From positions 37,004 to 101,003 of IMG/VR virus record IMGVR_UViG_3300009161_000031: 64,000 bases of DNA. One strand, given 5' to 3'. Below are positions 4,548-17,097 of this stretch, piece by piece; within the stretch, counting starts at the first letter, position 1, and every line of letters starts with the position of its first letter. Source of the stretch: a virus. Made by a program: the position numbers and the translations under genes. Below the pieces are notes generated by a model. That model saw nothing but the letters and a program-made list of their open reading frames with translations, searched no databases and was not told the origin of the DNA.

Positions 4548-4796
4548 TTTTATTTCCTATCTATTAGGCCCGATTAGTCGGGGGTAAGGGGTGGAACCGA
4601 TAAGGCCACCCTAGCACACTCTCCCGCTTGTCTCGCATTGGCAAACTAAAAAAGAAAAAACCAAAATTTTGATCCGGGGAATAGTTCTACATAATGTTTT
4701 CGCATAGAGATGTTTGAGATTATTATTGTTGATTATTGTTGCCGTTAGTTATTCGCTTATTTATTCCAGTTTATTGTTGAGATAAGACGAAGAGAT
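4548..4796. other. leader and transition into the GC-rich island
   Basis: No gene is visible. On the minus strand this is the leader of the 3787-4547 operon with hairpins at 4569-4582 (CCCGA/TCGGG) and 4588-4611 (GGGTGG/CCACCC). I found no convincing -35/-10 pair. Base composition changes near here from AT-rich to GC-rich. Confidence 0.5.
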
Positions 4797-4883
4797 GCTG
4801 GCGTGCCAAAATCGCCGGAGGCGATTTTGGCACGCCAGCCCTGAAGCGGACGCGTCAAGGGGAGGGGCCGTCGCCCCTCCCCT
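4797..4883 (-). terminator. tandem hairpins ending cassette 1
   Basis: A perfect stem at 4797-4839 (GCTGGCGTGCCAAAATCGCC, loop GGAG) and a GC stem at 4858-4883 (AGGGGAGGGGC...). They follow the gene at 4965. There is no T-run, as is common in GC-rich actinobacterial terminators. Confidence 0.6.
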
Positions 4884-4964
4884 ATTCGCCGCAGACCTTC
4901 GGTGCCTGCCTTCCCTTCGGGTCGGGGGCTTGTTCCCCTACCCGCTACTAGTAACCATCGCAGG

Positions 4965-5231
4965 CTAGGCTCTCACCCGTACTTGGGCGAAACCCTCGGG
5001 CGAGAAGTCTACGCGGCACTCTCCCGCTTGAACCTCCGCCCAATGCTTGCGAATGGTTGCGGACACCGTAGGCCGGTCGCTTTTGGCGACAGCGCCGAAT
5101 GTCCCCTTGAGGGCTACGCCTTGCTTGGGGGTAACCTTCGCAAGAGTCTCAAGAAGTTCTACAATAAGAACCTTCTTACGACCTCGTGGGGAAACCTGTA
5201 CGGAATCCGCTGAAATGAACTCATCGTTCAT
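4965..5231 (-). CDS. 88-residue paralog family protein, copy 1
   Basis: An 88-residue basic protein, one of three full-length paralogs in the island (others at 6039 and 7659). Shared blocks are VQVSPRGRKK, LKGTFG, VAKSDRPTV, ATIRKHW and FSPEG.AQVR. The basic SPRGRKK near the N terminus and the repeated beta/helix pattern suggest a nucleic-acid or protein-binding role, but no named family was recognised. The ATG at 5231 is chosen because GGGAGGTGATT lies just upstream and the paralogs start at the same residue; an in-frame GTG at 5243 overlaps that ribosome binding site. It is a single-gene unit with its own promoter at 5314-5342. Confidence 0.75.
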   Translation of the reverse strand: MNDEFISADSVQVSPRGRKKVLIVELLETLAKVTPKQGVALKGTFGAVAKSDRPTVSATIRKHWAEVQAGECRVDFSPEGFAQVRVRA

Positions 5232-5313
5232 TTGTCTAATCACCTCCCGTCTTGAGCCGTTGCTCTTAGTGTTTCGAAGAATCCGAACTTTACCGGATTA
5301 CCTGACAAAGAAC

Positions 5314-5342
5314 AGACTACCGGCCTAGAGCTATTGAGTCCA
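5314..5342 (-). promoter_or_regulatory. promoter of 4965-5231
   Basis: Minus strand TGGACT, 17-nt spacer, TAGTCT. The leader to the ATG is about 75 nt, longer than in other cassettes. Confidence 0.65.
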
Positions 5343-5417
5343 CTTCTGCTCATTCTTTTATTTTTATTCTCAATAACTAACCTACTAAAAAAGCCTCATT
5401 ATTTGACACCACTAGAT

Positions 5418-5493
5418 GCTGTCGTGCCAGGATCGCCTGCGGCGATTTTGGCACGACAGCCCACTCCGTAGCCTCGGGGGTTTCCCCCCGAGG
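5418..5493 (-). terminator. tandem hairpins ending cassette 2
   Basis: Stem 5418-5460 (GCTGTCGTGCCA...), in which two positions differ so that G-U pairs form only in plus-strand RNA, and stem 5472-5493 (CCTCGGGGG/CCCCCGAGG). Confidence 0.6.
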
Positions 5494-5504
5494 ATTTGCG
5501 GAAC

Positions 5505-5714
5505 TTAGACGTACTGCTTCTCACATAGGCAGCATTTGTCGTTGTAGTAAAAATCTGATTCCTTGCGCTGTTTGATGGTCTGCCTGCGAACGATTAGGGG
5601 TATGTAACTACCGCCTTTGGCTCGGGGGTCATTGTGAAAACAGTCGTGACAGACTAAGCCGTTACCGCCTAGGCGATGAACAAAATAACAGCCTTTGAGT
5701 TTTGGAGAAGTCAT
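5505..5714 (-). CDS. Cys/His-rich small protein
   Basis: A 69-residue basic protein with CHDCFH (residues 22-27) and CCLCEKQ (residues 61-67), plus another Cys and His near the N terminus. The two Cys pairs about 40 residues apart could bind zinc. The region between carries a basic patch (RRQTIKQRK), consistent with nucleic-acid binding, but this is inference. It is a single-gene cassette with its own promoter (5754-5782) and tandem hairpins downstream. Confidence 0.65.
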   Translation of the reverse strand: MTSPKLKGCYFVHRLGGNGLVCHDCFHNDPRAKGGSYIPLIVRRQTIKQRKESDFYYNDKCCLCEKQYV

Positions 5715-5753
5715 TATGAGCCTTTCGGACTAGGGGACTTGATTACATACTGA

Positions 5754-5782
5754 AATCTACTAGCTAACGGCCTGCGAGTCAA
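5754..5782 (-). promoter_or_regulatory. promoter of 5505-5714
   Basis: Minus strand TTGACT, 17-nt spacer (CGCAGGCCGTTAGCTAG), TAGATT. The spacer is nearly identical to those of cassettes at 6578, 7087, 8196 and 8850. Confidence 0.8.
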
Positions 5783-5832
5783 GCCTTAGCGAGTATTTAT
5801 TCTATTTATTTATTTATCTAACCCCAAGCAAT

Positions 5833-5958
5833 GCTGGCGCTCCAAATCGCCGGAGGCGATTTGGAGCGCCAGCCCCGAGCGCGACAAGGCCCGCTCTGAG
5901 GGGGCAGAGCGGGCCTTGAGCTAGAGTAATTCGGGGGAGAGGTTCGCACCTCTCCCCC
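5833..5958 (-). terminator. three hairpins ending cassette 3
   Basis: Perfect stem 5833-5873 (GCTGGCGCTCCAAATCGCC, loop GGAG), stem 5886-5917 (AAGGCCCGCTCTG/CAGAGCGGGCCTT) and stem 5933-5958 (GGGGGAGAGG/CCTCTCCCCC). Confidence 0.65.
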
Positions 5959-6038
5959 TACGGCTGCGGCTATCGGGATTGCCGCTGGCACCTCGCACCC
6001 CGTAGCAAGCGGGGGGCGCTACTGATACGATTCATCCG

Positions 6039-6305
6039 CTAGCGGATACGCACCTGCGCGTATCCCTCCGGTGAGAAATCAATACGGCATTCGCCGCTTT
6101 GTATAACGCACCAGTGCTTCCGAATCGTTGCTGCTACCGTCGGGCGGTCACTCTTGGCGACTACTCCAAAGGTTCCCTTAAGCGCAACACCCTGCTCGGG
6201 TGTGACGTTCGAGAGAGTGTCAAGCAAATCCTGAATAAGAATTTTCTTGCGCCCTCGCGGGGATACCTGTACGGCATCAGCAGGTAGAAATTCATCTGCT
6301 GGCAT
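6039..6305 (-). CDS. 88-residue paralog family protein, copy 2
   Basis: The second 88-residue paralog of the gene at 4965, sharing the blocks VQVSPRGRKK, LKGTFG, AKSDRPTVAATIRKHW and FSPEGYAQVRIR. The ATG at 6305 has GAGGTGATTATT upstream and aligns with the paralogs; the in-frame extension upstream is not needed. Differences concentrate in the first ten residues and in the middle helix. Function unknown. It has its own promoter at 6381-6409 and three hairpins after it. Confidence 0.75.
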   Translation of the reverse strand: MPADEFLPADAVQVSPRGRKKILIQDLLDTLSNVTPEQGVALKGTFGVVAKSDRPTVAATIRKHWCVIQSGECRIDFSPEGYAQVRIR

Positions 6306-6380
6306 AATAATCACCTCGATTCTTGGGCCGTTGCCCGATAGTTACGATGGGAACCTTGCCGTTCCCTGCTGACAAAGACC

Positions 6381-6409
6381 AAACTAATCGCGATGCCGTT
6401 CCCAGTCAA
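6381..6409 (-). promoter_or_regulatory. promoter of 6039-6305
   Basis: Minus strand TTGACT, 17-nt spacer (GGGAACGGCATCGCGAT), TAGTTT. Confidence 0.75.
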
Positions 6410-6490
6410 TTTCTGTACGTCATTATTACCTCAAGAAACTTATCATTTGCGCACATTCCATAAAATGTAAATACCGCTACGACTTGACAC

Positions 6491-6575
6491 GGGCGTGCCT
6501 TTTTGCGAGAGCAAAAAGGCACGCCCGCCCTGAGCAACCGGCATCAGGGCGAGCGTACGGCCTTTGGAGGCTCGC
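6491..6575 (-). terminator. hairpins ending cassette 4
   Basis: Perfect stem 6491-6526 (GGGCGTGCCTTTTTGC / GCAAAAAGGCACGCCC) and a weaker GCGAGC/GCTCGC stem at 6549-6575, just after the stop at 6578. Confidence 0.6.
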
Positions 6576-6577
6576 TG

Positions 6578-6868
6578 TTAGGCGAAATCCTCGGGGGTGA
6601 TGGAGTCCCAATCCATTGCGTCTACGACTTCCTCGGGGCTAATCCCGAGGAGTTCGGTCACCTCTAGGTGACTAACGCCTAAATCTAGCGCTCGGGCGAT
6701 AATGGCGGGGCCGAGAGCGTCAAAGGCGCGTGACATAAGAAGCACACCCGTTATGGCGTGACGGATAGAGTCGGGGTCGCCATTGACGACCAACTCGTGA
6801 AGGTTAAACATTGCCTGTACGCTTACCTCTAGCGTTTCTGTTAGTAGATTACGCTCTTGCTCGTTCAT
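6578..6868 (-). CDS. acidic helical hypothetical protein
   Basis: A 96-residue acidic helical protein. The middle (residues 30-75) is hydrophobic but not a membrane span, and residues 65-84 (LEVTELLGISPEEVVDAM) resemble a helix-turn-helix-like or short helical bundle segment; this is weak. No family recognised. It is a single-gene cassette with its own promoter (6910-6938). Its GC-rich codon use matches the island and differs from the structural genes. Confidence 0.65.
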   Translation of the reverse strand: MNEQERNLLTETLEVSVQAMFNLHELVVNGDPDSIRHAITGVLLMSRAFDALGPAIIARALDLGVSHLEVTELLGISPEEVVDAMDWDSITPEDFA

Positions 6869-6909
6869 TCGGTGGAGCCTCTCTGTTAGGTGACTTGCTT
6901 ACAAAAGAG

Positions 6910-6938
6910 AAACTACTAGCTATTGGCCTGCGAGTCAA
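6910..6938 (-). promoter_or_regulatory. promoter of 6578-6868
   Basis: Minus strand TTGACT, 17-nt spacer (CGCAGGCCAATAGCTAG), TAGTTT. Confidence 0.8.
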
Positions 6939-6988
6939 GTCGGAGCGGGGATTTATTCTATTTTATTTACAATGCCAAGCCAAGAGAT

Positions 6989-7067
6989 GCTGGCGCTCCA
7001 AATCGCCGGAGGCGATTTGGAGCGCCAGCGCATAGCAAAGCCCCCACCGTTGCCGGTAGGGGCTTTT
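6989..7067 (-). terminator. tandem hairpins ending cassette 5
   Basis: Perfect stem 6989-7029 (same sequence as 5833-5873) and stem 7037-7067 (AAAGCCCC.ACC / GGT.GGGGCTTTT), 20 nt after the stop at 7087. Confidence 0.65.
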
Positions 7068-7086
7068 ATTGCTAAGGCGGGGTGGC

Positions 7087-7443
7087 TTAGTTATCCAGCC
7101 CCTTAAACGTGCGTTCGATGTCTCGGATTGTCTGCGCTGCCCACGCATAGGCGAGTCCCTGTAACTCGTCTGCGATAGGCTCCCCCACTAGAAGGCAGAG
7201 AGCGATTCTCAAGCCCTCTTGCTCTCCCTCTATTTTTAGGGCTTCGGCATTGTGCGGGTAGTTAAATGCGTCTAGGCGTAACTCGCTTATTCCTAGTCGA
7301 ATGGCTATGGCCTCAACAGCCGATTTGAGGTCTTTAACCCTTTCCATTATCGGATAATGGAAACCTGCCTGATAGTGAAAAAAGTTAAAGATCGCGTCTT
7401 TAAGTTTTTTTTCGTATGCTTCTGCGCTAGTCGCGATGTCCAT
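7087..7443 (-). CDS. helical hypothetical protein
   Basis: A 118-residue mainly helical protein with charged N and C termini, the largest of the left half of the island. No motif was recognised. It is a single-gene cassette: promoter at 7484-7512, leader with GAAAGGCTCTCCC before the ATG, tandem hairpins downstream. The leader sequence is shared with the neighbouring cassettes although the coding sequence is not. Confidence 0.65.
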   Translation of the reverse strand: MDIATSAEAYEKKLKDAIFNFFHYQAGFHYPIMERVKDLKSAVEAIAIRLGISELRLDAFNYPHNAEALKIEGEQEGLRIALCLLVGEPIADELQGLAYAWAAQTIRDIERTFKGLDN

Positions 7444-7483
7444 TGGGAGAGCCTTTCGGTTGGGTGGCTTGGGTACAAATGAG

Positions 7484-7512
7484 AAACTACCAGCTCACGG
7501 CCTGCGAGTCAA
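7484..7512 (-). promoter_or_regulatory. promoter of 7087-7443
   Basis: Minus strand TTGACT, 17-nt spacer (CGCAGGCCGTGAGCTGG), TAGTTT. Confidence 0.8.
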
Positions 7513-7562
7513 GCCGGAGCGGGTATTTATTCTATTTATTTTTGTTAGCGATACCAGATAAT

Positions 7563-7640
7563 GCTGGCGCTCCAAATCGCCGGAGGCGATTTGGAGCGCC
7601 AGCGCATAGGAAAGCCCCCGCCTCACGGCAGGGGCTTTCC
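7563..7640 (-). terminator. tandem hairpins ending cassette 6
   Basis: Perfect stem 7563-7603 (third copy of the GCTGGCGCTCC hairpin) and stem 7609-7640 (GGAAAGCCCC / GGGGCTTTCC). Confidence 0.65.
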
Positions 7641-7658
7641 CGTATTCCGCTAAGGGGG

Positions 7659-7925
7659 TTAGCGGATTCTTACCTGAGCGTATCCCTCAGGCGAAAAGTC
7701 AATACGGCACTCTGAAGCCTGAACCTCGCTCCAATGCTTGCGGATAGTCGCCGCAACCGTTGGCCGGTCAGACTTAGCAACCTCACCGAACGTACCTTTG
7801 AGAGATACGCCTTGCTTTGCGGTTACTTTCTTTAGTGTTGCGAGTAGGTCGGGGATTAGGATTTTCTTTCGACCTCGGGGCGATACCTGAACATCGCTAG
7901 CGTCAATAAACTCATCTACGGGCAT
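7659..7925 (-). CDS. 88-residue paralog family protein, copy 3
   Basis: The third full-length paralog of the 88-residue family. It keeps VQVSPRGRKK, LKGTFG, VAKSDRPTVAATIRKHW and FSPEGYAQVRIR. The ATG at 7925 is preceded by GAAAAGGAAAGTG and aligns exactly with the other two; a longer in-frame reading runs back through the promoter and is rejected. The strong conservation across three separately promoted copies suggests dosage or slight specialisation. Function unknown. Confidence 0.75.
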   Translation of the reverse strand: MPVDEFIDASDVQVSPRGRKKILIPDLLATLKKVTAKQGVSLKGTFGEVAKSDRPTVAATIRKHWSEVQASECRIDFSPEGYAQVRIR

Positions 7926-7986
7926 TTGGCACTTTCCTTTTCTTAGTAGGTAGTTAGAGTAGAAAGTCTCCGCTCCAACAGAGATA

Positions 7987-8015
7987 AATCTACTCCTCCC
8001 TACTAAGTGAGTCAA
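7987..8015 (-). promoter_or_regulatory. promoter of 7659-7925
   Basis: Minus strand TTGACT, 17-nt spacer (CACTTAGTAGGGAGGAG), TAGATT. Confidence 0.75.
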
Positions 8016-8106
8016 GTTGGAGCGAGAGTTTTTCTAGAAACTTTTTGAGTAGCTGTCGGCCCGAGCGTTTATTCCACCTAACATAAAACCTAAGACGACT
8101 TGACAC

Positions 8107-8147
8107 GGGCGTGCCTTTTTGCGAGGAACGAGCAAAAAGGCACGCCC
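8107..8147 (-). terminator. hairpin ending cassette 7
   Basis: Perfect stem GGGCGTGCCTTTTTGC with its complement around GAGGAAC, closely matching the hairpin at 6491-6526 apart from the loop. Confidence 0.6.
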
Positions 8148-8195
8148 GCCCTGAGCAACCGGCATCAGGGCGAGCGTGCGGCCTTGCGGAGCGGA

Positions 8196-8423
8196 CTAGA
8201 TAATCACGCCCTCCATCAGGTTTACCAACGCATCAGCCGTAGTTACCGGAGCGTAGCCGTAGGCAATAGCGGCGATTATTTCTCTATCGCCATTTTTTGC
8301 GGCGACTCTTAGAACGTGAGAGATAATGGCGACGACATTAGAGTCATTGCTTATCTTATGGGCGATAGAATCGGTGCGATTTATTAGAGCGCTTCTTATG
8401 GCTTGAGTTTGTTCAGGATTCAC
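8196..8423 (-). CDS. helical hypothetical protein
   Basis: A 75-residue helical protein starting MNPEQTQAIRSAL with a hydrophobic middle (VVAIISHVLRVAA) that is too polar overall for a confident membrane span. No family recognised. It is a single-gene cassette with promoter 8463-8491 and the GAAAGGCTCCAAC leader shared with neighbouring cassettes. Confidence 0.65.
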   Translation of the reverse strand: MNPEQTQAIRSALINRTDSIAHKISNDSNVVAIISHVLRVAAKNGDREIIAAIAYGYAPVTTADALVNLMEGVII

Positions 8424-8462
8424 GTTGGAGCCTTTCGGTTAGGCGACTTGCTTACAAGAGAG

Positions 8463-8491
8463 AAACTACCAGCTATTGGCCTACGAGTCAA
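8463..8491 (-). promoter_or_regulatory. promoter of 8196-8423
   Basis: Minus strand TTGACT, 17-nt spacer (CGTAGGCCAATAGCTGG), TAGTTT. Confidence 0.8.
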
Positions 8492-8541
8492 GCCGGAGAA
8501 GGTATTTATTCTATTTTATTTTAGAACTGATACCGAGCAAT

Positions 8542-8704
8542 GCTGGCGCTCCAAATCGCCGGAGGCGATTTGGAGCGCCAGCCCTGAACGCAACAAAGCC
8601 CGCTCTGAGGGGGCAGAGCGGGCTTTGCGATAATGGCGGCCCCCCACGCCCCGTATGCGGGCGTAATGCCTTCAGCAAACCCAACGGGTTATGCGGGGGG
8701 GGCC
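8542..8704 (-). terminator. hairpins ending cassette 8
   Basis: Perfect stem 8542-8582 (fourth copy of the GCTGGCGCTCC hairpin), stem 8595-8626 (AAAGCCCGCTCTG/CAGAGCGGGCTTT) and a long GGCCCCCC/GGGGGGCC pairing spanning 8638-8704, six bases after the stop. Confidence 0.6.
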
Positions 8705-8709
8705 ACGAA

Positions 8710-8850
8710 CTAGAAGTTGAGAGACTCAATCCACGCTGCGACAATCGGCAGGACTATGAACGCCGAGATGCCGAGCAGATACGGGAAGACCTGCCTCCAC
8801 CTATCTTGGAGACTAAAGAATACCTCTACGCTATCGAAACGACGGTTCAT
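8710..8850 (-). CDS. 46-residue membrane protein, second of a pair
   Basis: A 46-residue protein (MNRRFDSVEVFFSLQDRWRQ...) with one membrane span at residues 22-40 (VFPYLLGISAFIVLPIVAA). The ATG shares its A with the TGA of the upstream gene (TGATG), so the two are translationally coupled. GGAAAGGTAATCTG precedes the ATG. With its partner it forms the clearest two-gene unit in the island. A paired small-membrane-protein unit could be holin/antiholin-like or a membrane-acting defence or exclusion pair; this is inference. Confidence 0.65.
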   Translation of the reverse strand: MNRRFDSVEVFFSLQDRWRQVFPYLLGISAFIVLPIVAAWIESLNF

Positions 8851-9005
8851 CAGATTACCTTTCCGATTAGTGTGATGACTAGAGCGCCTAGACCTATTAG
8901 GGCTAGGAATCCTAGCGTTATTAGGGTCACGCCGAGTAGCCCTGCGGCCACCTCTGCGAAACTATCTTCGCGAACATTCTTGAACCACACGTTAGATAGT
9001 TTCAT
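8850..9005 (-). CDS. 51-residue membrane protein, first of a pair
   Basis: A 51-residue protein beginning MKLSNVWFKN with a long hydrophobic segment (residues 19-50, AAGLLGVTLITLGFLALIGL onward) that could span the membrane once or as a hairpin. The ATG at 9005 has AAAGGAAAACT upstream, the same start context as the gene at 15536. A second in-frame ATG at 9035 lies exactly six bases after the -10 box, so a leaderless 61-residue form starting METNPEQ is also possible. Probably co-functions with the 46-residue membrane protein. Confidence 0.65.
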   Translation of the reverse strand: MKLSNVWFKNVREDSFAEVAAGLLGVTLITLGFLALIGLGALVITLIGKVI

Positions 9006-9041
9006 AGTTTTCCTTTGCTCGGGGTTGGTTTCCATAGTTAG

Positions 9042-9070
9042 AAACTACTAGCTGATGGCCTGCGAGTCAA
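9042..9070 (-). promoter_or_regulatory. promoter of 8710-9005 pair
   Basis: Minus strand TTGACT, 17-nt spacer (CGCAGGCCATCAGCTAG), TAGTTT. The predicted +1 falls on the A of the ATG at 9035. Confidence 0.8.
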
Positions 9071-9120
9071 GTCTATTTGGTTATTTATTCTAAGTTTATC
9101 TAATACCGATACCAGCCTTT

Positions 9121-9211
9121 GCTGTCGTGCCTCACATTTATGTGAGGTGTCGTGAGGCACGACAGCCCGATAGGTTTCCGGGCGCGAAAAAGCCCCCCTT
9201 GCGGGGGGCTT
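9121..9211 (-). terminator. hairpins ending cassette 9
   Basis: Stem 9121-9166 (GCTGTCGTGCCTCAC with its complement), which has an alternative inner CTCACAT/ATGTGAG hairpin, and stem 9190-9211 (AAGCCCCCC/GGGGGGCTT). Confidence 0.65.
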
Positions 9212-9231
9212 CTGCCGACTCTCCGAGGCCG

Positions 9232-9573
9232 CTAGGCGACCTCGGGGCGGTCTTCCCGGCAGTCGTGATGCCCGCTGTAGCAAAACTCGTCGCTATCGAA
9301 CTCTATAGAGTCATCGCCCTCAACGAAAATAAGCATCCCTGCGGCCATAGCCTCGTAATGCCCCTCGGGGTTCTGAATGATAGCCATGTAATCCCTGTCC
9401 GTTTGAGGGTCAAGCGCCTCAACGGCATAACCGATTAGAGCAGTTTTATCCGCCCAGTCCGCGTCCCAAAAGTTTCGAGACTCAATAAAGCGCATAAGTC
9501 TCCATTCTTTGACATCAAGTAAGCCGCCAAAGTGAAAATCTAGCAAGTGGCGAACGGTTTCGATGGTCTCCAT
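9232..9573 (-). CDS. acidic hypothetical protein, paralog of 9829-10176
   Basis: A 113-residue strongly acidic protein sharing its whole length with the next cassette: IETVRHLLDFH at the N terminus, RNFW, an NPEGHYEAMA.GML block and an HDCRE.RPE.A C terminus. High acid content and small size recall phage inhibitors that mimic nucleic acid, but that is only a resemblance in composition. Promoter 9620-9648; tandem hairpins downstream. The family was not recognised. Confidence 0.7.
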   Translation of the reverse strand: METIETVRHLLDFHFGGLLDVKEWRLMRFIESRNFWDADWADKTALIGYAVEALDPQTDRDYMAIIQNPEGHYEAMAAGMLIFVEGDDSIEFDSDEFCYSGHHDCREDRPEVA

Positions 9574-9619
9574 TTTTTCCCCTTAGATCGGGAGTGCGGG
9601 GTGCGCTCCAACAAGGACA

Positions 9620-9648
9620 AAACTAATCGCGTTACCTATTTGAGTCAA
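9620..9648 (-). promoter_or_regulatory. promoter of 9232-9573
   Basis: Minus strand TTGACT, 17-nt spacer (CAAATAGGTAACGCGAT), TAGTTT. This is the first of the second promoter subtype (GCGATTAGTTTTGTCC). Confidence 0.8.
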
Positions 9649-9715
9649 GTTATAGAGGCAAATTGAGGAAAAGAATAGGTTCACTCTAAGTAGCCAAAAG
9701 CTATCACCACTCAAC

Positions 9716-9808
9716 GCTGGCGTGCCTCACATTTTTTTGTGAGGTGCCGTGAGGCACGCCAGCCCGATGGGTTTCCGGGCGCGAAAAAGCCCCCCTTGCG
9801 GGGGGCTT
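9716..9808 (-). terminator. hairpins ending cassette 10
   Basis: Stem 9716-9763 (GCTGGCGTGCCTCAC with its complement, T-rich inner loop) and stem 9787-9808, identical to the one at 9190-9211. Confidence 0.65.
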
Positions 9809-9828
9809 CTGCCGACTCTCCGAGGCCG

Positions 9829-10176: not shown

Positions 10177-10222
10177 TTTGTCCCCTTAGGTTGGGAGTGC
10201 CGGTTGCGCTCCAACAAGGACA

Positions 10223-10251
10223 AAACTAATCGCGTTTCGGTTTTGAGTCAA
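10223..10251 (-). promoter_or_regulatory. promoter of 9829-10176
   Basis: Minus strand TTGACT, 17-nt spacer (CAAAACCGAAACGCGAT), TAGTTT. A CACTCTAAGTG palindrome lies 33 bases upstream at 10285-10295. Confidence 0.8.
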
Positions 10252-10408: not shown

Positions 10409-10419
10409 CCGACCGGCCC

Positions 10420-11417: not shown

Positions 11418-11427
11418 ACCGGGTCGG

Positions 11428-11640: not shown

Positions 11641-11693
11641 CTGCCAAATCCATTCTCTCAGGGAGTCCGCCGGTTGCTCGCTCCAATAAGTAC

Positions 11694-11722
11694 AAACTAC
11701 TCGCGTTCGGAATCTGAGTCAA
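11694..11722 (-). promoter_or_regulatory. promoter of 11428-11640
   Basis: Minus strand TTGACT, 17-nt spacer (CAGATTCCGAACGCGAG), TAGTTT. Confidence 0.75.
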
Positions 11723-11789
11723 CTTCTGCGTGCGAATTGAGGTAAAAATGATGTTCACTCTAAGTGGCCAAAAGCTATCACCACACAAC

Positions 11790-11895
11790 GCTGGCGCACG
11801 CTACGAGGGACGAGTAGGCGGCAGCGTGCGCCAGCCCGGGCCAAGGTCACTCTGAGTGATGAGGGGGGAGCGCCCCGACCCTTGCGGGCCGGGGC
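11790..11895 (-). terminator. hairpins ending cassette 14
   Basis: Stem 11790-11835 (GCTGGCGCACGCT...), the perfect palindrome CACTCTGAGTG at 11848-11858, and stem 11872-11895 (GCCCCG / CGGGGC). Confidence 0.65.
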
Positions 11896-11908
11896 TTGAC
11901 CCCTAGAC

Positions 11909-12217
11909 TCAGATTGAGAGTCTAAAGACCCTGGCTAGGTCTATGATTTCATCGCAAGCGGCTATTGCCTCGGTGCGAGGGACATCGTCGCCGCGTAGTG
12001 GGGCTAGGTCACCCAACACGCTTTGCATAGCGTGGCTGTAGGGGTTATCCATTCCCCAAATGCCGGTGGTCATGAGCACGTTGAAGATAACGTGAGCGTT
12101 CATGAACGTGCACCCCCACAATTCCTGTATCCGTTCCTTAATAAGTACGGAATTGGTGCTTACGGTTACCGCCGCATCGGTTGTCGCGGTTGCGACCTCT
12201 CCAGAGAAGTTCGGCAT
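11909..12217 (-). CDS. hypothetical protein, paralog of 13025-13333
   Basis: A 102-residue protein beginning MPNFSGEVATATTDAAVTV. It shares its length and layout with the protein at 13025: a Thr/Ala/Val-rich N terminus, a basic helix (IKERIQELW / ITKRIKELW), a hydrophobic middle and an acid helix near the end. The start at MPNFS is chosen over an earlier out-of-frame ATG in the conserved leader because the paralog at 13025 lacks that ATG. No family recognised. Confidence 0.65.
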   Translation of the reverse strand: MPNFSGEVATATTDAAVTVSTNSVLIKERIQELWGCTFMNAHVIFNVLMTTGIWGMDNPYSHAMQSVLGDLAPLRGDDVPRTEAIAACDEIIDLARVFRLSI

Positions 12218-12271
12218 GTGGCCAAATCCATTCTCTCGGGGAGGGAGCCGGTTGCTCTCTCCAATAAGTAC

Positions 12272-12300
12272 AAACTACCAAACATCAGTATGCGAGTCTA
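12272..12300 (-). promoter_or_regulatory. promoter of 11909-12217
   Basis: Minus strand TAGACT, 17-nt spacer, TAGTTT. First of the third promoter subtype (TTGTACTTATTGGAG downstream). Confidence 0.7.
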
Positions 12301-12362
12301 TTTGTGCGCCTAATTATTACCTCAAGATTAAAAAAAGAATCCAAAAAAAACCAGCTCCCGGC

Positions 12363-12391
12363 TTGACACGGGCGAGCGGGTGTGATTTGTT
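12363..12391 (+). promoter_or_regulatory. possible divergent plus-strand promoter
   Basis: TTGACA, 17-nt spacer, TTTGTT, followed by the CACTCTAAGTG palindrome at 12399-12409. One of five similar sites (13469, 14089, 14622, 15183). The -10 is poor. Confidence 0.35.
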
Positions 12392-12433
12392 CTGCGGCCA
12401 CTCTAAGTGACATTTTTTCCCATACCAGCCAAC

Positions 12434-12530
12434 GCGGGCGAGCTTAGCACACGGTAGATCGTGTGTGCGTATGGGGCGGCTCGCCCGCCGAACCCCAAAG
12501 GGGAGGGGAGAGGCTGGAGCCTCTCCCCTT
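12434..12530 (-). terminator. hairpins ending cassette 15
   Basis: Long stem 12434-12488 (GCGGGCGAGC / GCTCGCCCGC) carrying an inner GCACACG/CGTGTGTGC hairpin, then stem 12505-12528 (GGGGAGAGGCT / AGCCTCTCCCC). Confidence 0.65.
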
Positions 12531-12542
12531 TGCCCCCGGGAG

Positions 12543-12728
12543 TTACTCCTCCCAGCCGGTGATGCGGTCGGGGACTTCCCAGTCCTCAACATCGCCGTCA
12601 TCCTCAAGCGGGAACCGGTCGGGGCTGACCGTGTGGAGGATGCTGTCCAACTGTCCGAGCGGATGCCCGAACATGTGTTCTATCAAGCCGCGTGCGTCAA
12701 ACGCGGGGCTAGCAGAGAAGTTCGGCAT
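12543..12728 (-). CDS. mosaic protein: MPNFS start and shared acidic tail
   Basis: A 61-residue protein. The first five residues MPNFS match the cassette at 11909, the last 20 match the cassette at 11428 (EDDGDVEDWEVPDRI.GWEE, with only a few base differences in DNA), and the middle 35 residues are unique. The pattern suggests recombination inside conserved ends. Function unknown. Confidence 0.65.
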   Translation of the reverse strand: MPNFSASPAFDARGLIEHMFGHPLGQLDSILHTVSPDRFPLEDDGDVEDWEVPDRITGWEE

Positions 12729-12782
12729 GTGGCCAAATCCATTCTCTCGGGGAGGGAGCCGGTCGCTCTCTCCAATAAGTAC

Positions 12783-12811
12783 AAACTACCAGCTAATGGC
12801 TTGCGAGTCTA
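12783..12811 (-). promoter_or_regulatory. promoter of 12543-12728
   Basis: Minus strand TAGACT, 17-nt spacer (CGCAAGCCATTAGCTGG), TAGTTT. The spacer resembles the first subtype. Confidence 0.75.
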
Positions 12812-12907
12812 TTTCTGCGGGCTATTTCTTTGCATTATTTCTTTTTTTATTTGTGAGCAGAACTTGACAGCGTACTAAACTTGTACTAGACTACCCCACC
12901 ACTCTGC

Positions 12908-13017
12908 GCTGGCGCACGCTACGAGGGACGAGTAGGCGGCAGCGTGCGCCAGCCCGGGCCAATGTCACTCTGAGTGATGAGGGGGGGGGGAGCGCCCCGA
13001 CCCTTGCGGGCCGGGGC
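12908..13017 (-). terminator. hairpins ending cassette 16
   Basis: Stem 12908-12953 (same as 11790), palindrome CACTCTGAGTG at 12966-12976 and stem 12994-13017 (GCCCCG / CGGGGC). The whole block duplicates that of cassette 14. Confidence 0.65.
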
Positions 13018-13024
13018 TTGACCC

Positions 13025-13333
13025 CTAGGCTGCGTCTACCCAATCCATCATTAGGTAAACGATTACCTCGGAGGCAATCATCGCCTCGGAGTGTGGAGTA
13101 TTAGTCCGACGCAGGCCGATTAGTGAGGCCATTACTCTCTCGCCTGCGGTATGGGCCATTCCCTCGGTTGCCCAAATCATAGTGGACGATAGGGCTCCGA
13201 ATACCGCTTGAGCGGTTCTTGAGTCAACATTCCACAATTCTTTGATGCGCTTAGTGATTGCTATTGAGCAAGGCGCTACGGTTACCGCCGTATCGGTTGC
13301 CGCGATTGCGACCTCTCCAGAGAAGGTAGGCAT
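13025..13333 (-). CDS. hypothetical protein, paralog of 11909-12217
   Basis: A 102-residue protein (MPTFSGEVAIAATDTAVTV...) with the same length and organisation as the gene at 11909. Identity is strong in the first 20 residues and in the basic helix, and weaker later. The downstream hairpins are also copies, so an entire cassette was duplicated. No function recognised. Confidence 0.65.
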   Translation of the reverse strand: MPTFSGEVAIAATDTAVTVAPCSIAITKRIKELWNVDSRTAQAVFGALSSTMIWATEGMAHTAGERVMASLIGLRRTNTPHSEAMIASEVIVYLMMDWVDAA

Positions 13334-13387
13334 TTGGCCAAATCCAGTCTCTCGGGGAGCGAGCCGGTTGCTCTCTCCAATAAGTAC

Positions 13388-13416
13388 AATTTACCAAACA
13401 TCAGTGAGTGAGTCTA
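13388..13416 (-). promoter_or_regulatory. promoter of 13025-13333
   Basis: Minus strand TAGACT, 17-nt spacer, TAAATT. Confidence 0.7.
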
Positions 13417-13468
13417 TTTCTGCGCCTCATTGTTTCCTCAAGATAATAAAAGAAATCCAGCTCCCGGC

Positions 13469-13497
13469 TTGACACGCAGCCGCGGCTGTGATTTATT
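13469..13497 (+). promoter_or_regulatory. possible divergent plus-strand promoter
   Basis: TTGACA, 17-nt spacer, TTTATT; the expected +1 falls at the edge of the CACTCTAAGTG palindrome (13505-13515). Confidence 0.4.
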
Positions 13498-13539
13498 CTG
13501 CGACCACTCTAAGTGACCAAAAATGCCAAACCAAGCCGA

Positions 13540-13640
13540 GCGGGCGAGCTTAGCACACGAAGAGCGTGTGTGCGTATGGGGCGGCTCGCCCGCCGAACCC
13601 CAAAAGGGGAGGGGAGGGGCCGGAGCCCCCCCCCCTTGCT
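13540..13640 (-). terminator. hairpins ending cassette 17
   Basis: Stem 13540-13593 (GCGGGCGAGC / GCTCGCCCGC) with inner GCACACG/CGTGTGTGC, followed by a GGGGAGGGGCCGG / CCGGAGCCCCCC type stem. Confidence 0.6.
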
Positions 13641-13651
13641 CCCCCGGAGGG

Positions 13652-13957
13652 TTACTCCTCGTCTCGGAAGACGGGGTACCAACGCTCACCCTCGGGGGTG
13701 ACGATGAGAACATCGGCAGCCTCGGCAGCGGCGACGAGAATGTCCACCGTCGCTTCGAGTATTAGCAACTCGAAGGTTGTGGTGAACGAGGTGACCGCGT
13801 CAAGCGCCTTGTCCGTAGCCTTGAACGCGTCGGCCAACTCTTGCGCCTCGTAGCGGTTCACGTAGAACCCCTCTAGGCGTTTCGCGAGAACCGTCGCGTC
13901 GGCTACCGCGGGTGCGGTCTTGCTAAGAGAGAGAATCGGCTTCATGCCGTAGTCCAT
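13652..13957 (-). CDS. hypothetical protein with shared MDYGM start
   Basis: A 101-residue acidic helical protein starting MDYGMKPILSLSKTA. The first 13 residues are almost the same as those of the cassette at 14800 (MDYGMEPILSLSKAA), after which the two differ completely. The leader CTCCCCAAGAGA before the ATG is conserved too. A start at 13945 (MKPILS) is an alternative. No family recognised. Confidence 0.65.
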   Translation of the reverse strand: MDYGMKPILSLSKTAPAVADATVLAKRLEGFYVNRYEAQELADAFKATDKALDAVTSFTTTFELLILEATVDILVAAAEAADVLIVTPEGERWYPVFRDEE

Positions 13958-13997
13958 TCTCTTGGGGAGTCCGCCGGTTGCTCGCTCCGATAAGTAC

Positions 13998-14026
13998 AAA
14001 CTACCAAACACGCCTATGCGAGTCCA
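13998..14026 (-). promoter_or_regulatory. promoter of 13652-13957
   Basis: Minus strand TGGACT, 17-nt spacer, TAGTTT. Confidence 0.75.
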
Positions 14027-14088
14027 TTTCTGCGCCTCATTTTTTCCTCAAGATAAAAAAAAGAATCAAAAAAAAACTAGCTCCCGGC

Positions 14089-14117
14089 TTGACACGCAGC
14101 CGCGGCTGTGATTTATT
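14089..14117 (+). promoter_or_regulatory. possible divergent plus-strand promoter
   Basis: TTGACA, 17-nt spacer, TTTATT; followed by CACTCTAAGTG at 14125-14135. Confidence 0.4.
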
Positions 14118-14159
14118 TTATGACCACTCTAAGTGACCAAAAATGCCAAACCAAGCCGA

Positions 14160-14253
14160 GCGGGCGATCCTAGCACACGGTAGATCGTGTGTGCTTGGGC
14201 GGCTCGCCCGCGTGACCCCAAAGGGGGAGGGGAGAGGCCGGAGCCCCTCCCCT
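14160..14253 (-). terminator. hairpins ending cassette 18
   Basis: Stem starting GCGGGCGA at 14160 with CTCGCCCGC near 14203-14211, inner GCACACGG/TCGTGTGTGC hairpin, then GGGGAGAGGC / GCCCCTCCCC. Confidence 0.6.
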
Positions 14254-14267
14254 TGTTCCCGGCTCCC

Positions 14268-14477
14268 TTAGACTTCGTACCCGTGGCGGGTAAGAATGTC
14301 CCGGGTCATTGAGACGATTGTCTCGTTGAGGGCAACCATCTCAGCCCCGAACGATTCGCCGTGAGAGCGAATGTTGATGTCAATCCCCGCATTGCGGATT
14401 GACATTCTCAGCCGGGACTCAGCGTCGCGAACGAAGTCGCGAAGCACACTTGCCCCACTCTCGGTTATTCCGGCCAT
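14268..14477 (-). CDS. hypothetical protein
   Basis: A 69-residue protein starting MAGITESGASVLRDF. The start at 14477 is set by a near-perfect AAGGAGA seven bases upstream; it is the strongest Shine-Dalgarno in the island. The leader after the promoter differs from those of its neighbours, so this cassette may come from a different source. Mixed helix and strand expected; no family recognised. Confidence 0.7.
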   Translation of the reverse strand: MAGITESGASVLRDFVRDAESRLRMSIRNAGIDINIRSHGESFGAEMVALNETIVSMTRDILTRHGYEV

Positions 14478-14530
14478 AACTGTCTCCTTAGGTTCGTGGA
14501 GCGAACCGGTTGTTCCCTCCAACAAGTACT

Positions 14531-14559
14531 AACCTATCGCGTCCCCGTGTGCGAGTCCA
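14531..14559 (-). promoter_or_regulatory. promoter of 14268-14477
   Basis: Minus strand TGGACT, 17-nt spacer, TAGGTT. Confidence 0.7.
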
Positions 14560-14621
14560 CTTCTGCGCCTAAATGTTTCCTCAAGATAAAAAAAAGAATC
14601 GAAAAAAAACCAGCTCCCGGC

Positions 14622-14650
14622 TTGACACGGCGGCGCGCCTGTGATTTATT
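14622..14650 (+). promoter_or_regulatory. possible divergent plus-strand promoter
   Basis: TTGACA, 17-nt spacer, TTTATT; followed by CACTCTAAGTG at 14658-14668. Confidence 0.4.
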
Positions 14651-14692
14651 CTGCGGCCACTCTAAGTGACATTTTTTCCGCCCCCAGTTCTC

Positions 14693-14787
14693 GCGGGCGA
14701 TCCTAGCACACGGTAGATCGTGTGTGCTTGGGCGGCTCGCCCGCGTGACCCCAAAGGGGAGGGGAGGGGCCGGAGCCCCCCCCCCTT
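14693..14787 (-). terminator. hairpins ending cassette 19
   Basis: Stem 14693-14744 (GCGGGCGA ... CTCGCCCGC) with inner GCACACG/CGTGTGTGC hairpin, then a GGGGAGGGGC / GCCCCCCCC stem. Confidence 0.6.
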
Positions 14788-14799
14788 TTCCCGGGAAGT

Positions 14800-15057
14800 T
14801 TACTTTGTCCACTTAATGGCAAAGTCGATTGCCTTAGGCAACATCACTTGGATGTCGTACTCATCCTCGGTGTAGTAGTCTGTGATGAGGTACTGTAGCG
14901 CCTCACTTATGACCTCGGGGGAGAGTGTGGCAACAAACTCCATGGCCGCCTTGACGCACATGATAGGCATGTGAATCGGGTCAAGGCTAACGGCCTTGGC
15001 GTGTGCCGCGATTGCGGCCTTGCTAAGAGAGAGAATCGGCTCCATGCCGTAATCCAT
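14800..15057 (-). CDS. hypothetical protein with shared MDYGM start
   Basis: An 85-residue helical protein starting MDYGMEPILSLSKAA and then unique. The shared N terminus with the gene at 13652, together with a conserved leader and promoter, marks a recombination junction about 15 codons into the gene. Middle hydrophobic helices and an acidic loop (DYYTEDEYDIQ) are visible. Function unknown. Confidence 0.65.
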   Translation of the reverse strand: MDYGMEPILSLSKAAIAAHAKAVSLDPIHMPIMCVKAAMEFVATLSPEVISEALQYLITDYYTEDEYDIQVMLPKAIDFAIKWTK

Positions 15058-15097
15058 TCTCTAGGGGAGTCCGCCGGTTGCGTGCTCCGATAAGTAC

Positions 15098-15126
15098 AAA
15101 CTACCAAACACGCGTAGGTGAGTCCA
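15098..15126 (-). promoter_or_regulatory. promoter of 14800-15057
   Basis: Minus strand TGGACT, 17-nt spacer, TAGTTT. Confidence 0.75.
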
Positions 15127-15182
15127 CTTCTGCGCCTCATTATTACCTCAAGATAATAAAAAAAATAAATCCGGCTCCCGAC

Positions 15183-15211
15183 TTGACACGGGGCCGCGGC
15201 TGTGATTTATT
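15183..15211 (+). promoter_or_regulatory. possible divergent plus-strand promoter
   Basis: TTGACA, 17-nt spacer, TTTATT; followed by CACTCTAAGTG at 15219-15229. Confidence 0.4.
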
Positions 15212-15253
15212 TCACGGCCACTCTAAGTGGTCAAAAAAGCGTATCCATATTTA

Positions 15254-15301
15254 GCGGGCGATCCTAGCACACGAAGAGCGTGTGTGCTGTCCGGGCCGCC
15301 C
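15254..15301 (-). terminator. degenerate hairpin ending cassette 20
   Basis: An AGCACACG/CGTGTGTGCT hairpin (15266-15288) inside GGGCGA...CCGCCC arms. It is separated from its gene by a tandem repeat block, unlike the other cassettes. Confidence 0.45.
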
Positions 15302-15330
15302 ACGTAACTGTTGTTCTGGGGGGCCGCTGG

Positions 15331-15440
15331 GCGCGGCGAGCCGCGATGTGGGGCGCGGCGAGCCGCGATGTGGGGCGCGGCGAGCCGCGATGTGGGGCGC
15401 GGCGAGCCGCGATGTGGGGCGCGGCGAGACGCGATGTGGG
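15331..15440. repeat. five tandem 22-bp repeats
   Basis: The unit GCGCGGCGAGCCGCGATGTG plus GG occurs five times head to tail; the last has one substitution (GAGACG). Each unit contains a CGCGGC/GCCGCG inverted pair. It lies between the 15536-15649 gene and its distal hairpin. Confidence 0.9.
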
Positions 15441-15535
15441 GTACGTCAAGCTGACTCCAGGCCAGAACCAGGGCTCGGGCCTGGGCGCGCAGAGGGGGGA
15501 GAGGCCGGAGCCCCTCCCCCGCCTCGCCTGCGGGG

Positions 15536-15649
15536 TTATGCGATGCAGTAGATTAGGAAGCAGAGCAGCTCTGCCCTGCGCTCTTCGCTCAAGAGCGGGG
15601 TCGTGTGGTACGTGTAGTCGAGCAACATAATCAGTTCGCCGTGTGTCAT
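15536..15649 (-). CDS. 37-residue hypothetical protein
   Basis: A 37-residue protein starting MTHGELIMLLDYTY and ending LLCFLIYCIA. The ATG has AAAAAAGGAAAACT upstream, matching the start context of the gene at 9005, and a promoter at 15691-15719. The C-terminal third is hydrophobic and could insert in a membrane. A longer frame reading through the tandem repeats on the same strand is rejected as composition-driven. Function unknown. Confidence 0.6.
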   Translation of the reverse strand: MTHGELIMLLDYTYHTTPLLSEERRAELLCFLIYCIA

Positions 15650-15690
15650 AGTTTTCCTTTTTTCGGGGAGCCGGTTGCTCCGATAAAGAT

Positions 15691-15719
15691 AACTTATCAC
15701 CGGCCCTAGTGTGAGTCAA
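15691..15719 (-). promoter_or_regulatory. promoter of 15536-15649
   Basis: Minus strand TTGACT, 17-nt spacer (CACACTAGGGCCGGTGA), TAAGTT; the best -10 in the island. Confidence 0.8.
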
Positions 15720-15845
15720 GTTGGAGCGGGTATTTCTTTTATTTTATTTATCGGGCCGCGCTGTTGGCCGCGCTGTCGGGGTAGGTCGCGTGGTGTGTGC
15801 TGTTGTGTGAGTAGGGCAGGGCGGGTACGCCCTGCTGGCTCTGCC

Positions 15846-15937
15846 CTGGCCTGACCCAGGGTCGCGAGCTGGCCTGACCCAGGGCCGCGAGCTGGCCTGA
15901 CCCAGGGCCGCGAGCTGGCCTGACCCAGGGCCGCGAG
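15846..15937. repeat. four tandem 23-bp repeats
   Basis: The unit CTGGCCTGACCCAGGGCCGC plus GAG occurs four times head to tail, with one T variant in the first unit, and a partial fifth. Open frames across it are repeat artefacts. Confidence 0.9.
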
Positions 15938-15965
15938 CTGGCCGCGTCCTGGCCTACACGCGACA

Positions 15966-16057
15966 ACGCCGCGACCCACGCTATCGGGTCGCGGTGTTCG
16001 CCTATGGCGGTACGATAACCCGCACCCCTTGAGACTCTCGCACTAGGCGAGAGTCTC
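15966..16057 (-). terminator. hairpins after 16070-16291
   Basis: Stem 15966-15999 (CCGCGACCC / GGGTCGCGG) and perfect stem 16031-16057 (GAGACTCTCG / CGAGAGTCTC). Confidence 0.65.
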
Positions 16058-16080
16058 GCGGGCTACGTGCTAGGCGCTTA
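16009..16080. repeat. about 70-bp direct repeat, copy 1
   Basis: This stretch, which includes the GAGACTCTCG hairpin and runs into the end of a gene, is almost identical to 16319-16390. Confidence 0.8.
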
Positions 16081-16291
16081 GGGCTATTAGTTCGGTTGCG
16101 ACGTTACCGGCGTTGGCGATTGTGTGGACTAGTGCGGCCTCAAGCGCGGTAGTCTGTCCATCGGTCGCAAGCATTAGCAACATCTCGCGGATAGTCCGGT
16201 CGGCGTTGGAATGGCCAAGAATCGCCTCGGTCACTCGGCGCGTTATTTCGTCAAGCCGTATTTCTACTGCGCGGTGCTGGTGGTGATTCAT
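16070..16291 (-). CDS. hypothetical helical protein
   Basis: A 73-residue helical protein (MNHHQHRAVEIRLDEITRRV...). AAAGGGGACATA precedes the ATG, and this leader (AACCAAAGGGGA) is also found before the gene at 16380, so the two cassettes share both leader and downstream hairpin. No own promoter of the island type was seen; it may be read through from the upstream gene or use an unrecognised promoter. Function unknown. Confidence 0.65.
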   Translation of the reverse strand: MNHHQHRAVEIRLDEITRRVTEAILGHSNADRTIREMLLMLATDGQTTALEAALVHTIANAGNVATELIALSA

Positions 16292-16318
16292 TATGTCCCC
16301 TTTGGTTGGTTGGTTGGT

Positions 16319-16390
16319 GGTACGGTAACCCGCACCCCTTGAGACTCTCGCACTAGGCGAGAGTCTCGCGGGCTACGTGCTAAACGCTTA
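16319..16390. repeat. about 70-bp direct repeat, copy 2
   Basis: Second copy of the 16009-16080 repeat, covering the hairpin and the last codons of the gene at 16380. Confidence 0.8.
16341..16367 (-). terminator. hairpin after 16380-16661
   Basis: Perfect stem GAGACTCTCG / CGAGAGTCTC with loop CACTAGG, 13 nt after the stop. Identical to 16031-16057. Confidence 0.7.
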
Positions 16391-16661
16391 CGTGGTGGAA
16401 CGCTATCACCGCGTTCGCGTTCTCGGCACCGATTACGTTCCCACCGATTACGTGACCGGCGAGACGCGCAAGCCATACGCGGCGCTCTTTAGTTGGCATC
16501 GCGGCTATTGCTATCGCGGCACCACGTAGGCGAGGCTCTGACTCAAACAGTAGGGCCGCGTTTGCCTTGAGGCGGAGACTCAAGGCATCTTGCTCCCCTA
16601 CTACTTGCGCGCGGTCCGCGTTGCCACCGGTGTCCGGTAGGTCTAGCGTGGAATCGAACAT
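16380..16661 (-). CDS. hypothetical protein, first gene of the island
   Basis: A 93-residue protein starting MFDSTLDLPDTGGNAD, then Ala-rich helices with basic residues (MPTKERRVWLARLAGHV). The start at 16661 is set by AAAGGGGAACAA upstream; a longer in-frame reading would run through a hairpin at 16684-16706 and is not needed. No promoter of the TTGACT type was found upstream. Function unknown. Confidence 0.65.
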   Translation of the reverse strand: MFDSTLDLPDTGGNADRAQVVGEQDALSLRLKANAALLFESEPRLRGAAIAIAAMPTKERRVWLARLAGHVIGGNVIGAENANAVIAFHHVSV

Positions 16662-17097
16662 TTGTTCCCCTTTGGTTAGATTCCGAGCGGGTGTCTCCCG
16701 CTCGGCCTTGCCCCTAAAGCGTACCGCGTCGCGGGTGCCGCGCATAGCATCGGGGCCGCGATTAGGCGAAGAATCGGGAGCTTGACCGCGCAGCGTGGCC
16801 AGCTATGGGCCGATTCTCACGCCGCGTGGTCGTTGGAGGTCGTTCTGGCAGATGGTGCGCCAGCACGACAGACTTCTCCTAATATTTATTCAATTTTTCA
16901 AAAATATGTATTCAAGTTTTTGAATTCTTGCATTCAAGTTTTTGAATTTTTGGGTTGTTGTATATTTATGATGAAAGGGGGGCTTTTGGGGTTGTTTGGT
17001 TATATTTATTGGTATGTAGGCACTCTCTGTAAGGTTCGCATGTTTCGTCGCTCTACGGGGCACACAGGGGGCTCTCCGGGGATTGTACACGCCTATA
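16662..17097. other. gene-free junction between the island and the methyltransferase
   Basis: A 436-bp stretch without a convincing gene. It holds a CCGAGCGGG/CCCGCTCGG hairpin (16684-16706), then the base composition drops sharply and three 22-bp spaced palindromic elements follow (16888-16947). Confidence 0.6.
16888..16953. repeat. three 22-bp spaced ATTCAA palindromes (iteron-like)
   Basis: ATTCAAGTTTTTGAAT occurs at 16910 and 16932, with a degenerate copy (ATTCAATTTTTCAAAA) at 16888. The spacing is exactly 22 bp, about two helix turns, so a protein could bind all three on one face. Could be operators or origin iterons. Confidence 0.65.

Follow-up and report, generated by a model that had tools for sequence, protein, structure and literature searches.

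Why would a phage supply nearly every gene in a row of small genes with its own promoter and its own downstream hairpins? This question is raised by a locus in IMGVR_UViG_3300009161_000031, a 101,003-bp virus record of which we analyzed positions 37004-101003, a stretch of 64,000 nucleotides referred to here as the window. The locus, referred to here as the island, lies at window positions 4797-16661 on the minus strand and contains 23 small open reading frames (ORFs; 37-118 aa) arranged as 22 units, c1 to c22. Our data suggest that the island is probably an early host-takeover region made of shufflable monocistronic cassettes, within a tailed phage of approximately 101 kb that is distantly related to Streptomyces BE-type phages. 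A cassette consists of a promoter, a short conserved leader, a small ORF, and one or two hairpins. In the mechanism we propose, host RNA polymerase would transcribe every gene separately, soon after DNA entry, with the first hairpin acting as the terminator and the second insulating the next promoter. With each cassette transcribed from its own promoter and ended by its own hairpin, neighbors would be independent, and the repeated modules would supply the recombination homology through which cassettes could be duplicated, swapped, gained, and lost with neighboring genes unharmed.

The GC content of kb 5-18 is 52-62%, compared to 33-45% in most of the rest, and the step is sharp, with a GC content at third codon positions (GC3) of 0.61 in the island and 0.32 outside it. 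We found a G+C hairpin of at least 9 bp no more than 160 nt from the stop codon in all 22 units, compared to 1.2 in shuffled flanks and 2 of 24 late genes. Hairpins of at least 10 bp occur 27 times in 12.1 kb (2.2/kb), compared to 5 times in 44.8 kb elsewhere (0.11/kb) and 0-2 times per shuffle. The 12-kb island has 20 copies of the promoter TNGACT-N17-TARNNT, every one of them on the coding (minus) strand, a count that partly reflects the derivation of the motif from these same sequences. Each unit from c3 to c22 has exactly one copy on its 5' side, separated from the start codon by 7 or 40-82 nt, while 3 copies are found in the other 89 kb of the 101-kb genome and 0-2 in 50 shuffles. An independent sigma-70 score, comparing island upstream regions with shuffled upstream regions, gave a Fisher p of 9e-8. 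A generic promoter scan over the first 20 kb is, on its own, near chance (31 vs 25.2 +/- 4.6); the promoter signal comes from the constant spacing and from where the promoter sits with respect to its ORF. The initial annotation, made from the sequence, described approximately 20 cassettes in a GC-rich, one-strand island, with a promoter before most of the small genes and tandem hairpins after them. The array is indeed as described. A promoter per gene holds for c3-c22 but not for c1 and c2, where none was recognized, nor strictly for c15, which holds two genes; tandem hairpins are clear in most units but not in all, with c16 and c19 carrying the long one only. The units are listed here by window position; family A is a protein family described below.

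16326-16661, minus strand: c1, ORF 16661-16380 (93 aa), hairpin 16382-16326, no promoter recognized
16016-16291, minus strand: c2, ORF 16291-16070 (73 aa), hairpin 16072-16016 near-identical to that of c1, no promoter recognized
15495-15719, minus strand: c3, promoter 15719-15691, ORF 15649-15536 (37 aa), hairpin 15520-15495
14702-15126, minus strand: c4, promoter 15126-15098, ORF 15057-14800, hairpins 14788-14753 and 14731-14702
14169-14559, minus strand: c5, promoter 14559-14531, ORF 14477-14268, hairpins 14254-14222 and 14198-14169
13604-14026, minus strand: c6, promoter 14026-13998, ORF 13957-13652, hairpin 13637-13604
12908-13416, minus strand: c7, promoter 13416-13388, ORF 13333-13025 (c9 paralogue), hairpins 13017-12994 and 12953-12908
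12504-12811, minus strand: c8, promoter 12811-12783, ORF 12728-12543, hairpin 12529-12504; mosaic
11790-12300, minus strand: c9, promoter 12300-12272, ORF 12217-11909, hairpins 11895-11872 and 11835-11790
11331-11722, minus strand: c10, promoter 11722-11694, ORF 11640-11428, hairpins 11420-11387 and 11376-11331 (loop TCGTTCCTC)
10873-11251, minus strand: c11, promoter 11251-11223, ORF 11216-10971 with its ATG 6 nt from the -10 box (leaderless type), hairpins 10963-10930 and 10918-10873 (loop TCGTTCCTC)
10319-10805, minus strand: c12, promoter 10805-10777, ORF 10725-10420, hairpins 10408-10377 and 10364-10319 (loop TCGTTCCTC)
9716-10251, minus strand: c13, promoter 10251-10223, ORF 10176-9829, terminator 9810-9785 (T-run), hairpin 9763-9716
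9121-9648, minus strand: c14, promoter 9648-9620, ORF 9573-9232, terminator 9213-9188 (T-run), hairpin 9166-9121
8542-9070, minus strand: c15, promoter 9070-9042, ORFs 9035-8850 and 8850-8710 (hydrophobic segments, judged by eye), hairpins 8627-8594 and 8582-8542
8106-8491, minus strand: c16, promoter 8491-8463, ORF 8423-8196 (GTG start), hairpin 8148-8106 (loop TCGTTCCTC)
7563-8015, minus strand: c17, promoter 8015-7987, ORF 7925-7659 (family A, RGR motif), hairpins 7640-7609 and 7603-7563
6989-7512, minus strand: c18, promoter 7512-7484, ORF 7443-7087, hairpins 7066-7037 and 7029-6989
6490-6938, minus strand: c19, promoter 6938-6910, ORF 6868-6578, hairpin 6527-6490
5833-6409, minus strand: c20, promoter 6409-6381, ORF 6305-6039 (family A), hairpins 5960-5931, 5918-5885, and 5873-5833
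5418-5782, minus strand: c21, promoter 5782-5754, ORF 5714-5505, hairpins 5495-5470 and 5460-5418
4797-5342, minus strand: c22, promoter 5342-5314, ORF 5231-4965 (family A), hairpins 4944-4918, 4883-4858, and 4839-4797

Do the hairpins end transcripts? They could instead serve RNA stability or processing, or bind proteins, with the island transcribed as overlapping long RNAs from many promoters, a reading that we consider unlikely. T-runs follow several of the first hairpins. The second hairpins lack a U-tract, which speaks for this reading, as does the perfect conservation of 41-nt hairpins. The 9-mer TCGTTCCTC also speaks for it: its four copies in the genome of the window phage (G000) are all in the island and all in apical loops of long hairpins, and a related phage, G015, has seven copies, all in its island and 5 of 7 in apical loops, on differing stems. 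The chance expectation is approximately 0.8 copies per genome. A constant TCGTTCCTC loop carried by stems that change suggests that a protein or an RNA recognizes it. In favor of the cassette reading, the second hairpins covary: across 11 units 99% of pairs are kept and two-sided changes occur at 5 of 10 pairs; the 17 two-sided-change cells, compared to 5.0 +/- 1.6 when shuffled, are not a count of independent events because the hairpin copies are paralogous. Within IMG/VR, exact matches to the 33-nt core of the long hairpin are confined to the same phage, and an Rfam search gave no match. Against a role other than termination, many of the first hairpins have the classical form of a G+C stem plus T-run, and the next promoter lies directly after each hairpin set.

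The proposed exchange of cassettes finds support in the intergenic regions, which are homologous between unrelated genes. One group of four has an identical 41-nt long hairpin and both promoter boxes conserved, and two further groups have hairpins, the CACTTAGAGTG element, and the promoter plus leader in common. Among 183 non-homologous gene pairs, flank sharing exceeded the 99% null for 63 5' flanks and 24 3' flanks. Ordinary tandem duplication might account for this if the intergenic likeness were the leftover of duplicated genes whose coding parts diverged past recognition. Several paralogous pairs are present, and c13 and c14 represent a duplicated whole unit (coding 68%, 3' flank 94%). 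However, three family A paralogues with 68-70% identical coding DNA have unrelated flanks (0.46-0.62, near or little above background), whereas genes without detectable similarity share flanks at 0.8-0.9. Furthermore, the best 5' partner differs from the best 3' partner in 12 of 20 units, and c8 combines a c9-type 5' flank and a c6-type 3' flank with a C-terminus like that of c10. We thus regard tandem duplication as a quite improbable explanation of the whole; it contributes, yet alone it cannot yield the mosaic. The histories of genes and of regulatory modules are partly separate, the signature of shuffling or of gene conversion via repeats.

Relatives of the window phage were found via a capsid search, and five of them (G014, G015, G023, G019, and G021) contain an array of small ORFs that lies on one strand and is rich in GC and in hairpins. 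These islands lie at 80.8-89.5 kb in G014, 67.4-78 kb in G015, 34-41 kb in G019, and 20.7-26 kb in G021, and are partial in G023. The locus is the same wherever the surroundings are readable. A DNA methyltransferase flanks the island upstream in G014 and G015, as it does in the window, and the islands of G019 and G021 occupy the opposite strand, approximately 15 kb upstream of the capsid gene. No island was seen in G018 and G017, whose records may stop short of the locus, and none further turned up among methyltransferase relatives. Collinearity between G015 and G023 extends over approximately 11 kb on the upstream side, where aa identity is mostly 50-80%, and resumes at the family A genes on the downstream side; the cassettes in between show no match, with almost no gene in common. 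Across 71 cassette proteins from four phages, family A alone is common to all, and a weak zinc-ribbon-like family is common to three. The island thus resembles a rack for early genes whose locus and wiring are conserved while the genes are exchanged almost completely. The earlier suggestion of self-contained cassettes that can be reshuffled gains support both from this exchange between collinear relatives and from the mosaic modules shared between non-homologous genes.

Family A proteins are approximately 90 aa in length and share a conserved W and, close to the N-terminus, an invariant RGR. All six phages have at least two copies per island or at the island edge, toward the downstream end; those of G019 and G021 were recognized via profile comparison (hhalign probability 95.6%). 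The RGR resembles the AT-hook-like motif of Lsr2-type proteins, and any function assigned to family A is putative. Searches of Pfam, PHROGs, and solved structures with the window cassette products and family A returned nothing significant, and an AlphaFold model of family A (pLDDT 66) had no match at E <= 0.001 in a PDB fold search (best 0.25). Family A was not found in the bacterial genomes searched and so gives no clue to the host. Among the relatives, the G014 island encodes a WhiB-like regulator (L115:6645-6929) and the G015 island a DEDDh (RNase T-type) exonuclease (L119:15080-15700). A weak 42-residue match of G015_10 to an ORF of the terminal repeat of the Streptomyces phage Jay2Jay (E 4e-5 in a small set, tblastn negative) was not relied on. 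The hairpins, with their TCGTTCCTC loop and stem covariation, and family A might act jointly as a dedicated cassette-exchange system, for example in recombination, antitermination, or silencing control. We hold this to be doubtful; if true, TCGTTCCTC hairpins and family A would keep, copy, and swap early-gene cassettes across the whole phage lineage.

What kind of phage carries the island? A direct 123-bp overlap between the record ends fits a circular map of approximately 100.9 kb, and the genes include RNR, ThyX, portal, and a long tape measure. The major capsid protein has 54-56% aa identity to those of Streptomyces BE phages, and the order of ThyX, glycosyltransferase(s), RNR, portal, and capsid matches that of Gilson and Jay2Jay. 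Capsid identity and gene order together point to a distant relative of Stanwilliamsviridae (Streptomyces BE-type phages), one whose window has no DNA similarity across 50,697 phage records.

In BE1 phages, the ThyX-RNR-portal-capsid order is adjoined by a terminal repeat of approximately 11 kb with 20-25 small ORFs. The direct terminal repeat of Jay2Jay is 10,778 bp (PMC5764925). It is a minus-strand small-gene array (L133:1-10778) directly adjoining the ThyX block, with a GC content of mostly 52-59% after the first kb, compared to 46-50% beyond. The motif TNGNNN-N17-TAGA[C/G]T occurs 12 times in this repeat, all on the coding strand, compared to 0 in the next 11 kb and 0.02 in shuffles, and the terminal repeat of Samisti12 (L148) has 8 coding-strand copies. 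These motif repeats receive no mention in the Jay2Jay genome announcement (PMC5764925). The window island has the BE1-repeat features of position, one-strand small genes, raised GC, and per-gene promoters. Like the repeats of the Samistivirus phages Jay2Jay and Samisti12, it lies beside the ThyX block and upstream of RNR-portal-capsid, is of the order of 11 kb, holds small ORFs (20-25 in the repeats) nearly all on one strand at raised GC, and carries for each gene one promoter motif whose spacer is 17 nt. Synteny and GC place the island where BE1 phages have their direct terminal repeat of approximately 11 kb, and a one-promoter-per-gene array at the genome end seems to be common to it and the BE1 phages. 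By analogy, the island would lie at or near a genome end and may itself be a direct terminal repeat.

Long terminal regions classically hold early genes. For the island we infer early expression, terminal-repeat status, and host-directed gene functions; a host-takeover store is plausible given the place equivalent to the BE1 repeat and the WhiB-like regulator and DEDDh exonuclease of the relatives. If true, each cassette would be an independently expressed host-attack or counter-defense gene, and the island a compact source of candidate small inhibitors. These data also suggest that the BE1 repeats, which have been little described, are one-promoter-per-gene arrays, an idea that is directly testable since BE1 phages are culturable. 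That the island is instead a GC-rich mobile or recently acquired element (an integrative island, satellite, or integron-type cassette array) inserted in an AT-rich phage is very unlikely: the sharp GC and GC3 step and the lack of relatives of island products would fit, but no integrase, transposase, or recombinase was found among the called island ORFs, covering 57 island proteins from four phages and the scanned window island proteins, and islands of one kind in six divergent phages, with the matching GC-rich BE1 terminal repeat, mark it as an old resident of the lineage.

Codon use bears on the timing proposed for the host-takeover region. The tRNAs of G014, G015, and G000 read A-ending codons (Leu-TAA, Arg-TCT, Lys-TTT, Ile-TAT, Val-TAC, and Glu-TTC), and several phage-tRNA codons are much rarer in island genes (TTA 0 vs 203 in G014; AAA 8% vs 58% in G015). 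G000 lacks tRNAs for Ile and Val, and its island genes show no depletion of ATA or GTA. The rarity of phage-tRNA codons is as expected if island genes are translated before phage tRNAs exist.

Several observations weigh against the early host-takeover cassette region. The codon avoidance may stem from GC content alone. A strong perfect hairpin is found in just 6 of 19 G014 units, and the sigma-70 test is not significant in G023 and weakly so in G015. In Jay2Jay, the generic sigma-70 test gives a weak signal (p < 0.05 for 2 of 15 genes) and the motif was derived from the data. The only near-identical record, G020 (99.98%), is without any cassette change. Unlike the island, the BE1 terminal repeats have no hairpin excess, no family A homologue was found in them, and an Lsr2-like gene is present; the dense hairpins are special to the lineage of the window phage. 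The Gilson terminal repeat is just 766 bp, with GC-rich small genes at the other (right) end of the genome. Given this layout and the lack of a BE1 hairpin excess, position is no proof of terminal-repeat status. Furthermore, terminal duplication is proven in BE1 phages, while the window island lies in a metagenome contig, in which such a repeat would be collapsed.

Is such an array without precedent? The PeSLs, mobile regulatory cassettes of T4-type phages (Arbiol 2010; Comeau 2014), reportedly consist of a stem-loop and an early promoter repeated between small variable genes and were proposed as mediators of shuffling. The island likewise has a stem-loop followed by a promoter, repeated between unrelated genes, a likeness of working for which we do not claim homology. 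PeSLs belong to the T4-type lineage and their sequences are unrelated, whereas the island is a contiguous 12-kb array with 20 promoters and mostly double hairpins. The window phage is not of T4 type, having a long-tail tape measure, a BE-type capsid, and the promoter TNGACT-N17-TARNNT. PeSLs of T4-type phages are among the elements cited in PMC4503421. The SPO1 host-takeover module comprises 24-26 small early genes with strong promoters, whose products inhibit the host, in the terminal redundancy (PMC10531801, PMC6873191). It is similar to the island, again with no claim of homology, in region size, number of small early-type genes, and many promoters, and it lies in a terminal repeat. It differs in having its genes in operons and a Bacillus host, and no repeated promoter-terminator module is described for it (PMC10531801, PMC6873191). 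Repeated elements are also found in cluster K mycobacteriophages (SAS/ESAS) and, as intergenic repeats, in Microbacterium phage clusters EC, EF, EG, and EI (PMC7302621, PMC3203893). These too are repeated regulatory sequences located where many different small genes start, but they are short start-associated or inverted repeats without terminators, not complete promoter-terminator modules. The statement of the initial annotation that phages normally use long operons overlooked the SPO1 module and the T4 PeSLs. The island would unite the ideas of SPO1 host takeover and T4 PeSL shuffling in one locus of an actinophage-like lineage.

The neighborhood of the island contains the following features.

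17098-18105, minus strand: DNA methyltransferase at the upstream flank of the island (phrog_116, 3e-73)
3669-4547, minus strand: AT-rich three-gene block 3' of the island (ORFs 4547-4254, 4257-3958, and 3957-3787)
3778-3736, then 3713-3669: terminator followed by a hairpin of island type, at the end of the AT-rich block, which is the island boundary

Within the island, a near-palindrome, CACTTAGAGTG, lies 5' of the -35 box in most of c4-c14 (window 9700-15230) and is absent from units nearer 5-9 kb; it is a candidate operator. Short tandem repeats are present between c2, c3, and c4, at 15850-15960 (approximately 4 copies of CCAGCTCGCGGCCCTGGGTCAGG) and 15320-15440 (approximately 5 copies of CGCCGCGCCCCACATCGCGGCT). 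The G015 island contains dense TTATCCACA-like (DnaA-box-like) and CCTGTGGACAAACCTGTGG repeats (L119:15880-16240, also between cassettes), possibly an origin or a DnaA-titrating site. Beyond the AT-rich block, window 2208-3786 is an AT-rich stretch of approximately 1.6 kb without convincing ORFs that separates convergent gene blocks and is a candidate genome-end or replication region.

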